A DNA stretch of 64,000 nucleotides, taken from assembly GCA_027068435.1 (NCBI GenBank), contig JAMOTA010000038.1, forward strand, positions 1 to 64,000, given 5' to 3'. Origin of the DNA: Sulfurovum sp. GTDB lineage: Bacteria; Campylobacterota; Campylobacteria; Campylobacterales; Sulfurovaceae. Both the position numbers and the translations under genes were made by a program. Below the pieces are notes generated by a model. That model did not search any database, had not been told where the DNA came from, and saw nothing but the letters and a program-made list of their open reading frames with translations. Below, piece by piece: positions 8,165-9,309 of the stretch (position 1 is the stretch's first letter; every line of letters begins with the position of its first letter).

Positions 8165-8175
8165 TTTGGACTAAG

Positions 8176-8201
8176 ATAGTCATTATAGCTATAATGACTA
8201 T
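8176..8201. promoter_or_regulatory. Perfect 26-base palindrome, candidate antitoxin operator or terminator
   Basis: The two arms ATAGTCATTATAG / CTATAATGACTAT abut without a loop. The site lies 12 bases after the stop of the formate dehydrogenase-like gene and 15 bases before the antitoxin start. Toxin-antitoxin operons of the Phd type are autoregulated through palindromes at this position, and the right half includes TATAAT; a terminator for the upstream gene is the alternative. Confidence 0.5.
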
Positions 8202-8216
8202 TAAAAAGGATTAGAT

Positions 8217-8483
8217 ATGCAATCAATTACAGCTTCAGAAATAAAACTTAATAGTACACTCTTACAAAATGCATTGAAAGAGGATATGCTTGTAACCAAA
8301 AGAGATAAACCTTTTGTGGTTGTAGTAGATTATGACAGATATATTGAACTCACTGCTAAACAGGTACGTTCAAATAACTGGATAGAAAAATCATTTGGAA
8401 TTATGTCTAATAATGATGCTGATAATCTTATGGAAGATATTGTTGAAAGTAGAGTTAACAAAGAGATAGATTTATGGTCTTAG
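8217..8483 (+). CDS. Phd/YefM-type antitoxin
   Basis: An 88-residue protein with the Phd/YefM fold signature: an N-terminal ASEIKLNSTLLQNAL DNA-binding segment, then LVTKRDKPFVVVVDYDRYIEL. In intact systems it would neutralise a toxin and repress its own operon by binding upstream palindromes. A good AAAAAGGA ribosome site precedes the ATG. The expected toxin gene starts at 8474, overlapping the antitoxin end, but stops after 8 codons. The antitoxin is therefore an orphan remnant or acts in trans. Confidence 0.75.
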   Translation: MQSITASEIKLNSTLLQNALKEDMLVTKRDKPFVVVVDYDRYIELTAKQVRSNNWIEKSFGIMSNNDADNLMEDIVESRVNKEIDLWS

Positions 8484-8500
8484 ATACAGATACTATTTAA
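8474..8500 (+). pseudogene. Truncated PIN-domain toxin (VapC-like) remnant
   Basis: An ATG overlapping the end of the antitoxin gene reads MVLDTDTI and then stops at TAA. This is just how PIN-domain ribonuclease toxins of the VapC group begin (a hydrophobic residue, then LDTD/N with the first catalytic Asp). The rest of the gene is missing, and I see no continuation in another frame. The overlap and position match an antitoxin-toxin operon. Only eight codons support the call. Confidence 0.5.
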
Positions 8501-8530
8501 AAAATTGTATTAATAAACGGTATTTTACGA

Positions 8531-8536
8531 TATAAT
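8531..8536 (+). promoter_or_regulatory. -10 element of the candidate type I toxin mRNA
   Basis: A TATAAT hexamer that would start transcription near 8543, giving an approximately 85-base leader before the 19-codon hydrophobic ORF. The leader also holds a 21-codon ORF (8550-8615, starting MMIFVRGD) with no clear ribosome site. Confidence 0.45.
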
Positions 8537-8628
8537 TTTAATGCATGTTATGATGATATTCGTAAGAGGAGATATTTTCTATCTTTGGATGGGTGGGGCT
8601 TGGGCTAGCCCTTGAGAAAGGATAACGC

Positions 8629-8688
8629 ATGCGTATTCTTATTATCATCATACTGTTGCTGATTATCTTCACCATTAGGTGTTGGTAG
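8629..8688 (+). CDS. 19-residue hydrophobic peptide, type I toxin-like
   Basis: The ORF encodes MRILIIIILLLIIFTIRCW, an almost wholly hydrophobic helix with a charged end, and has a strong AGAAAGGAT ribosome site 6-7 bases upstream. Such peptides are typical membrane-acting toxins of type I systems (Ibs, TisB, AapA). The mRNA around it shows features of those systems: TTGGGCTA in the leader (8600-8607) is exactly complementary to TAGCCCAA across the stop codon (8686-8693), a 13-bp hairpin follows, and a convergent antisense promoter lies at 8738-8765. It is not a family I can name, and it could instead be a leader peptide. Confidence 0.5.
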   Translation: MRILIIIILLLIIFTIRCW

Positions 8689-8696
8689 CCCAATAG

Positions 8697-8729
8697 GGAG
8701 TATAGAGAGATTACGACTCTCTATGCTCC
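8697..8729. other. Strong 13-bp stem-loop after the hydrophobic ORF
   Basis: GGAGTATAGAGAG pairs with CTCTCTATGCTCC (one G-T pair) around a 7-base loop. It has no T run, so it is more likely a stabilising 3' structure of the sense mRNA and a 5' loop of an antisense RNA than a simple terminator. Confidence 0.6.
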
Positions 8730-8737
8730 ATGCAAAT

Positions 8738-8765
8738 ATTATAACATAAAACTTTTTATATCCAA
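8738..8765 (-). promoter_or_regulatory. Candidate antisense promoter facing the hydrophobic ORF
   Basis: On the minus strand TTGGAT and TATAAT are separated by 16 bases, a good sigma-70-like promoter. Transcription would begin near 8731 and run through the hairpin and the 19-codon ORF, giving an antisense RNA like the antitoxins of type I systems. Where that RNA ends is not visible. Confidence 0.45.
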
Positions 8766-8888
8766 AATTAATCATTGAAATATGGAGTGTAGGTTGGGGT
8801 GTCTCTGTCCCGATATTTGTTAAACTCTTCTTTATATAAGTTCCTAATTACTTCCCCGTATTTACTACTACATATTTAAATATTATTT

Positions 8889-9005
8889 GTCATAATATAT
8901 ATACCATTTAAGCAAGAAAATTTTTTAGAATATGCTCAAGCATTGGGATATACTAAATATTGGGTAAACCATCCAAATAATAAAGTTGAAGAGGTTATCT
9001 CTTAA
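8889..9005 (+). pseudogene. C-terminal gene fragment without a start
   Basis: An open stretch of about 38 codons with no start codon that ends at TAA; it reads as ordinary protein (for example NFLEYAQALGYTKYWVNHP). The frame is closed by a stop at its left end. It looks like the last part of a deleted gene. I cannot name the family. Confidence 0.35.
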
Positions 9006-9039
9006 TTTTTAGGATGAAACTTGCATAAGGAGACTATAT

Positions 9040-9120
9040 ATGAAAAAAAACCAACTAATCACCATAAACTCCACAGCTCTCACTTTAAGAAAGTCTCTTA
9101 TTAAAAATATAACAATTTGA
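9040..9120 (+). CDS. Small ORF of 26 residues
   Basis: The ATG follows a perfect AAGGAG ribosome site and encodes a basic peptide starting MKKNQLITINSTALTLRKSL. The length and the lack of recognisable similarity leave it uncertain; the ribosome site is the main support. It lies in the accessory patch among gene remnants, so it may be the start of a lost gene. Confidence 0.25.
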   Translation: MKKNQLITINSTALTLRKSLIKNITI

Positions 9121-9172
9121 CATATTTTTACCTCTTTCTCTTTTTTTATTCTATACTTCTTATTATATGAAC

Positions 9173-9195
9173 TAAGGTCGCAAATTGCGACCTTA
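9173..9195. promoter_or_regulatory. 23-base palindrome, candidate operator
   Basis: TAAGGTCGCAA and TTGCGACCTTA are perfect 11-base arms around a single A, 18 bases before the small ORF at 9214. The short G+C-rich core in an A+T-rich gap suggests a protein-binding site. As RNA it would form a hairpin, but no T run follows. Confidence 0.45.
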
Positions 9196-9213
9196 AAGAA
9201 AATAGGAGTACTA

Positions 9214-9309
9214 ATGAAAGCATTAACCATATCCACCTATTTAGCAACACTTGTAAATGAAACAAAAAAGACCGATGTAAAAGTGATGGGGTTTTTGTGT
9301 AATGCGTGA
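9214..9309 (+). CDS. Small ORF of 31 residues coupled to yraN
   Basis: The ATG has an AGGAG ribosome site 6 bases upstream, and the ORF (starting MKALTISTYLATLVNETKKT) overlaps the yraN start by 8 bases. It may be a translated leader that couples to yraN, or the remaining start of a gene whose rest was lost. No family is recognised. Confidence 0.35.
   Translation: MKALTISTYLATLVNETKKTDVKVMGFLCNA

Follow-up and report, generated by a model that had tools for sequence, protein, structure and literature searches.

Does the short locus between a formate dehydrogenase gene and yraN in this contig of a sulfur-oxidizing Sulfurovum encode a toxin held in check by an antisense RNA and, if so, to which known system does it come closest? 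The locus lies at 8531-8748 of the window, i.e., of the whole 64,000-nucleotide stretch of DNA that was analyzed. The five elements that a first-pass annotation had described there (a promoter box, a short ORF with its ribosome site, a 5'-3' complementarity, a 3' hairpin and an antisense promoter) were all found in place by direct reading. Based on the comparison with related copies, we interpret the locus, with a probability of roughly 0.84, as a chromosomal type I toxin-antitoxin module resembling Ibs/Sib. This core reading holds because the ORF shows coding constraint, compensatory changes preserve the pairing of the mRNA ends and the antisense -10 box recurs in nearly all copies examined. 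The candidate locus of the first-pass annotation stands in as far as its peptide, its antisense -10 box and its self-paired mRNA are conserved, but its choice of lock, its -35 box and its nearest known system had to be corrected.

A short gene and its reading frame

The mRNA promoter is marked by TATAAT at 8531-8536 on the plus strand, which direct reading confirmed and from which a start is expected at about 8542. The ORF at 8629-8688 (plus strand, ATG at 8629) encodes the 19-residue hydrophobic peptide MRILIIIILLLIIFTIRCW, the candidate toxin, behind a ribosome site AAAGGA at 8617-8622. The small hydrophobic peptide gene with a ribosome site that characterizes type I systems is present, and both parts, as first annotated, recur beyond the window: peptide, ribosome site and a minus-strand ATTATA are kept in all eight distinct copies of group A, the close copies from Sulfurovum and kin. 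Besides the window peptide, this group comprises MRILAIIILLLIIFTVKCW, MRILIVIILLLIIFTVRCW, MRILCMVILLLVILTTRCW, MRILGIVILLLVILTIRCW, MRVLIIVILLVIIFTSKCW, MHILVIIILLIILTTKCC and MRVLYIIILLLVILTTQCR, with an RCW/KCW-like C-terminus. A larger, diverged family, group B, was found with covariance models; its peptides have 18-20 residues in 55 of 60 rows and often end in TKAY. Near their C-terminus, the peptides described here usually carry a positive residue.

Ile and Leu together make up the majority of the 19 residues of the window peptide, a composition that would also suit the leader peptide of an ilv-like attenuator. This explanation is scarcely credible, given that the downstream sequence differs among the compared genomes, that the next gene, yraN, is more than 500 nt away and that the conserved promoter points in the opposite direction.

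The reading frame itself bears the marks of selection on a protein. In group A (20 pairs), pN/pS is 0.43, and the other two frames reach 0.63 and 1.84; in group B it is 0.39-0.47, and over both groups the alternative frames span 0.63-0.74 and 1.6-1.8. The hydrophobic class is retained in 40 of 42 single-base core replacements in group A (25.9 expected) and in 484 of 540 in group B (301 expected). These statistics come from sequence pairs that are non-independent and from an aligner that is not codon-aware. All 11 gap runs within ORFs (alignments A3 and A5) are 3 nt long, and only 15 of 140 outside the ORF are multiples of three. Judged by these comparisons, the ORF is a gene under coding constraint. 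They also weigh on the alternative that the locus specifies a structured regulatory RNA without a toxin gene, its ORF being incidental or a decoy. Such an RNA would suit the strong folding and the covariation in leader, ORF and 3' end described below, and pairing does constrain parts of the ORF; the in-frame pN/pS, the gaps of 3 nt only, the retained hydrophobic class and the conserved ribosome site and start all argue against it, and we hold it to be decidedly unlikely.

Folding of the mRNA and the antisense promoter

The window copy has a G-rich leader, and the fold of this stretch has a z-score of -4.1 against 200 shuffles. Across the eight group-A copies, several pairings can be followed on the plus strand. 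The 5' end of the mRNA, TGCATG (8542-8547), pairs with CATGCA (8729-8734, whose first base, 8729, also ends the 3' hairpin), with 95.8% of cells paired and a change on both sides in one of six pairs. The leader segment TATGATGATA (8549-8558) pairs with ORF codons 5-8, TATCATCATA (8643-8652), enclosing the ribosome site (89.9% of cells paired, both-side change in four of ten pairs). The ribosome site and start codon form a hairpin with codons 2-4 at 8617-8639, in which AGGATA (8619-8624) faces TATTCT (8634-8639), again with 95.8% of cells paired and a both-side change in one of six pairs. The 13-bp hairpin at the 3' end (8697-8729), which had been noted from the window alone, is present and 88.1% paired, with both-side changes in seven of 13 pairs. 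On this comparison, these four are the best-supported pairings of group A. A leader hairpin GGGCT-TGGGCT-AGCCC (8596-8611) is paired in 97.5% of cells, with both-side changes in none of its pairs, and it includes TTGGGCTA (8600-8607).

This last segment is the one that had been taken to lock the mRNA, through its exact complement TAGCCCAA, which spans the stop codon at 8686-8693 (plus strand). The complementarity itself is kept in all eight copies, but it is not the best-supported pairing and beats shuffles only modestly: the leader-3' duplex of this region reaches -15.1 to -20.6 kcal/mol in 8/8 copies, and 12-66 of 500 shuffles are equally low. At fixed columns of the group-A copies there is no both-side change, and the pairing is missing from the minimum-energy fold of the window transcript, where both segments use other partners. 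In the G040 copy, TTGGGAC stands with GTCCCAA, a compensatory change by eye. TTGGGCTA/TAGCCCAA is likely an alternative pairing rather than the main lock.

In group B, the mRNA ends are joined by a 12-bp pairing of CTAGTTGGG with CCCAACTAG and variants of these. Among 18 copies (alignment A5, which omits the decayed copies G113_C147, G040_C38 and G040_C77), 93.8% of cells are paired and 24 cells are changed on both sides; these changes are non-independent because 12 of the 18 rows come from one genome. None of 500 shuffles equals these copies in percentage, cell count or score, and the number of both-side-changed pairs is within chance, being reached by 276 of 500 shuffles. Over 60 rows (alignment A6, fitted to its own model), 89.5% is paired, and one pair is C-G in 35 rows and U-A in 17. 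The group-B start codon lies within AUAACAAU, whose partner AUUGUUAU in the ORF is paired in 92.0% with no both-side change; single-sequence folds often choose a different partner. Since the predicted openness of the group-B ribosome site ranges from 0.04 to 0.98 across folds, the fold alone fails to show a closed site in every copy. A further leader-3' pairing in group B, GGGACAG with CTGTCCC, was rejected: it is 93.7% paired, yet its covariation is no better than that of shuffles. With dozens of natural variants, in which ends co-vary and codons double as structure, the closure of a toxin mRNA becomes testable by comparison.

On the minus strand, the extended -10 box TATGTTATAAT (8738-8748) includes TATAAT at 8743-8738, and the predicted RNA would start at about 8731 and run leftward. 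The -10 box appears as ATTATA in 8/8 group-A copies and in both group-C copies, and as exact TATAAT near the same minus-strand place in 55 of 60 group-B rows; the other rows comprise two with TACAAT, two poorer ones and one with none, which is apparently cut short. All 55 exact boxes are preceded by T at -5 and G at -2 (counted from the hexamer), i.e., an extended -10 TATGnTATAAT. The promoter had first been described as TTGGAT-N16-TATAAT. TTGGAT is indeed found at 8765-8760, 16 nt upstream, but it is the extended -10 box that is conserved and not this -35 box, in place of which group B has T-rich runs (e.g., TTTAGA) and no fixed -35. For the sense promoter of group B, 59 rows have 20 nt upstream; 25 of them contain an exact TATAAT and 22 a five-of-six match (2.5 and 21.1 in shuffles), at the same two positions in 51 of the 59. 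A generic promoter scan of the window performed at background (6 found, 7.0 expected) and listed neither of the two promoters, and no clear terminator was identified for either predicted RNA.

From the conserved promoter we infer an antisense RNA against the toxin mRNA, and the parts can be assembled into a working model. An mRNA of about 200 nt from about 8542 would encode the peptide, which would form a single membrane helix. The ends of this mRNA would pair together, while leader and ribosome site would pair with the peptide's own codons; because ends, leader and ribosome site are all paired, the full-length transcript should be folded shut. The second RNA, from about 8731 on the opposite strand, would be driven by the extended -10 and cross the hairpin, the ORF, the ribosome site and the leader, so that translation would be blocked and the duplex targeted for degradation. 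If the antisense supply fell, or if the mRNA were trimmed open, translation would yield the peptide, which would then disturb the inner membrane.

Copies, relatives and genomic setting

The first-pass annotation had staked its proposal on finding the peptide and its pairing in other Campylobacterota, and both are kept among relatives. By blastn against 100 relatives, five other genomes of the same genus were matched at E 2e-78 to 3e-14; 56 of the 100 gave something at E <= 0.1, the remainder being short scraps that were not counted. The similarity of the window copy to the other group-A copies ends at the two -10 boxes. The group-A copies of three genomes (G022, G012 and G053) have a common upstream stretch. 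Downstream of the copies, the sequence varies between genomes. Nine stretches emerged from a pattern scan of named bacterial genomes, every one from Sulfurovum, Sulfurovaceae or Epsilonproteobacteria, and two of these were new loci.

Covariance models reached further. Model R1, built on group A, matched 8 of 78 Sulfurovum genomes and revealed the diverged copies. Model R2 was built from 13 Sulfurovum loci; at E <= 0.05 it picked up 17 of the 78 genomes, of which 10 were accepted on a best E below 1e-8. Of the weak matches, G110 and G036 lack the design and were set aside as non-members, while G057, G108, G054, G055 and G018 were left uninspected outside the accepted set. Model R3, from 18 group-B loci, matched 10 of 150 genomes of the family, 8 of 248 of the order, 23 of 120 of genus g16 in another family (f16), 2 of 81 of family f8 (E <= 0.005) and 15 of 397 of the phylum, counts that include remnants and weak matches, e.g., G292, G467, G488 and G732, as well as the uninspected G583 and G559. 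On inspection, G488, G467 and G292 proved to be remnants or ORF-dead copies, and G732 has no matching ORF. Weak but well-formed relatives occur in family f8 (MQQLLLIVILLMFVITKLH) and family f13 (MSKTMLIVALILVILVTKLY, MLKTAIIVMVIVLVLAERLY). Plasmid records gave no match, and viral contigs none to either the group-A or the group-B pattern. Absences are soft because the wide searches score no more than 6 to 39 preliminary candidates in each genome; one genome (G112) was matched in one search and missed in another. The E-values of these custom models are approximate.

Several genomes carry more than one copy. One Sulfurovum genome has 13 places, some of them arranged in tandem and three about 310 nt apart, and the window's own genome has three: the window copy of group A, a group-B copy MFRIMIIVILLLLIIVTKAY at C44:76758-76961 and a weak copy MELLILILTIIVAILRYYNS at C17:7392-7556 (E 8e-4). 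Other copies are ORF-dead, having lost the start codon, gained an insert or had the ORF deleted, which is the pattern expected if the toxin dies before its RNA frame. This distribution bears on the alternative that the peptide is a small non-toxic membrane protein, e.g., a subunit or a regulator, under antisense control. From general knowledge, a single hydrophobic helix that ends in polar or charged residues would fit small regulators equally; the patchy presence (strong matches in the 10 accepted Sulfurovum genomes), the multiple places per genome, the ORF-dead copies and the ibs-like design make it unlikely all the same. If the type I reading is true, a multi-copy type I family is added to Sulfurovum and to other, mostly free-living, Campylobacterota.

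Some relatives display features of their own. In two loci from family f8 (L197 and L198, MQQLLLIVILLM..ITKLH), the long leader upstream of the ORF contains what looks by eye like a terminator hairpin with its T run, suggestive of a different control layout. A locus of family f15 (L063, 1501-1602, genome G178), a weak R1 match at E 0.004, contains a hydrophobic ORF start in its leader, where the ribosome site and the start codon are spanned by a pairing, seen by eye, of CCATCGGCTA with TAGCCGATGG. In one genome (G019; L090 and L092), repeats of the GTAGGTCGGAGTC / CCGACCTAC type were seen by eye near several group-B copies.

The window copy sits in a gap of 1137 nt between formate dehydrogenase and yraN (8165-9301). 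At 14 yraN loci of the same genus, the formate dehydrogenase gene is 2-8 nt away (aligned ends) in three (L173, L177 and L178), 73-1309 nt away in six and not within the stretch in five. The junction is, from these alignments, insertion-prone and holds other inserts elsewhere. The gap of the window contains the type I locus, an orphan ORF resembling Phd/YefM antitoxins and, by eye, a remnant. A mobile repeat of the short MITE type, with inverted ends that happen to carry promoters, would also be a dispersed, multi-copy unit bounded by inverted repeats in a gap with different inserts among relatives. Such a repeat is highly improbable here, for the ends co-vary between copies, unlike fixed transposase sites, and the reading frame is constrained as a coding sequence.

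The neighbors in the gap can be described briefly. Directly upstream of the type I locus, the ORF at 8217-8483 resembles type II antitoxins of the Phd/YefM kind at scores below the cut-offs (Pfam PF02604, 20.9 bits against 29.8; NCBIfam phd_fam, 15.2 against 20.8), and no ORF of at least 60 residues follows it on the plus strand before yraN. At 9099-9308 there is a promoter block like that of locus L183 and a short ORF whose last residues, by eye KVMGFL, recall the end (DADAKVMGFL) of the ORF inserted at this junction in locus L184; the L184 ORF may be ORF6N-like, and the window segment is probably a decayed gene. A palindrome-like sequence, AAATATGNCAATTTGACATATTT, precedes three group-A copies (L035, L036 and L037) by some tens of nucleotides and is also found in L199 and at 9099-9130 of the window. 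When at most two mismatches are allowed, 36 of 37 Sulfurovum genomes contain it (with as many as 32 matches counted by strand), as do 3 of 23 genomes from other families, and the reversed control occurs once in total; the sequence is perhaps a genus-wide operator of a regulator.

Comparison with known systems

The first-pass annotation had suggested a possible new family, which agrees with the libraries tried. At gathering score, Rfam gave no match in the window and eight related loci; one 20-residue member had no match in Pfam, and two members had none in NCBIfam. In a literature search Sulfurovum was not linked to type I toxin-antitoxin systems, nor Sulfurimonas to a type I toxin, and a published mention is possible.

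It had also compared the locus with AapA-IsoA. In the account given in excerpts of PMC6733600, aapA/IsoA is a multi-copy family of Campylobacterota (there Epsilonproteobacteria) with 5'-3' pairing and start-site hairpins. Several traits of the Helicobacter pylori system are shared: it belongs to Campylobacterota, has several chromosomal copies, and combines a small membrane peptide with a cis-antisense RNA, as is predicted here. Its mRNA is likewise closed by long-distance 5'-3' pairing and start-site hairpins, as far as that source describes, the evidence here being comparative. AapA1, in contrast, has 30 residues and an essential C-terminal Lys-Arg according to the relevant part of PMC8309996 and is set apart by description, and the -10 box of IsoA3 is placed inside the toxin ORF in the consulted part of PMC6733600, whereas here it lies 3' of the hairpin. 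Assignment to AapA/IsoA was rejected on this position of the antisense promoter. The likeness to AapA-IsoA in mRNA control holds but is limited to that, and Ibs/Sib, which had not been considered, is nearer. With hok/Sok, the inert folded mRNA is shared as a principle (PMC6733600, in excerpt), but the toxin there is longer, with a hokC coding sequence of 153 nt, and the K-12 hokC locus has no R2 match.

The nearness to Ibs/Sib was seen when model R2, which contains no E. coli sequence, was run on 222,012 bases of E. coli including the membrane genes of nuo, cyo and atp as well as ldrA-C, shoB, tisB, dinQ and hokC. The five K-12 ibs genes took ranks 1-5, on the ibs strand and over the full model, with 34.0, 22.4, 19.8, 18.8 and 16.3 bits against 11.8 for the best other match; the ldrA-C, shoB, tisB, dinQ and hokC loci of K-12 had no match at E <= 10. 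The match to ibsA stops 15 nt short of the annotated sibA start, with the antisense -10 of the model on CATAAT. R1 and R3 fail to separate ibs (R1 ranks ibsA first by 0.8 bits over background, R3 second). An nhmmer profile from the alignment of R2 ranked four of the five ibs genes first; the ORF alone put two ibs genes first at E 0.9, and leader or 3' part alone placed none in the best nine. The ibs signal needs the parts combined, because separate pieces recover little.

Rfam's own SIB_RNA model (RF00113) finds none at gathering score in the window or the eight related loci, with sibA, sibB and sibC found as control. Below its cut-off (56), the two group-B copies tried are both matched at full length on their antisense strand, with 16.0 bits (E 1.5) and 18.5 bits (E 0.36), where unrelated families score equally; the model is listed in neither of two group-A copies (searched up to E 5 and E 10) nor in the one group-C copy. 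As the Rfam cut-off is not reached, we do not assign membership in Ibs/Sib.

The peptides agree in length and composition, with 18-19 hydrophobic residues in the K-12 Ibs peptides (NC_000913.3) and 19 in the window. Against the group-B peptide profile, all five Ibs peptides beat shuffles (a fraction of 0.0001 to 0.0034 scores as well), and with the ends fixed they do so weakly (0.011 to 0.091), so that the likeness rests largely on the two ends; against the group-A profile there is no position-by-position likeness (0.20 to 0.43 of shuffles are as good). The layout is the same, i.e., leader, ribosome site, ORF, hairpin and antisense promoter, and in both systems neighboring copies occur in pairs. 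The sibA start lies 38 nt past the ibsA stop; the antisense start predicted here lies about 43 nt past the ORF stop. As summarized in part of PMC4147584, Sib antisense RNA covers the entire ibs coding region and its ribosome site, and K-12 has five repeats of 140 nt. Ibs/Sib differs in belonging to another phylum, with the loci tried here falling under the Rfam cut-off, and in IbsC, which in the excerpted part of PMC8309996 lacks the positive residue near the C-terminus that is usual here.

E. coli Ibs/Sib, and not AapA/IsoA, is the closest known system that we found, and the Sulfurovum locus likely works in the same way. More tentatively, and at somewhat short of even odds, Ibs/Sib may extend beyond the enterobacteria and form part of a superfamily of minimal toxins (18-20 residues) to which Campylobacterota also contribute, and which is either ancient or spread by horizontal transfer. 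In such a superfamily, the sense and antisense promoters would mirror each other, as would the initial dozen bases of the two RNAs, and each copy would have its own co-varying end lock, hence the many copies per genome. The likeness across phyla raises the question of whether some of the shortest toxins on record have one origin or were invented repeatedly.
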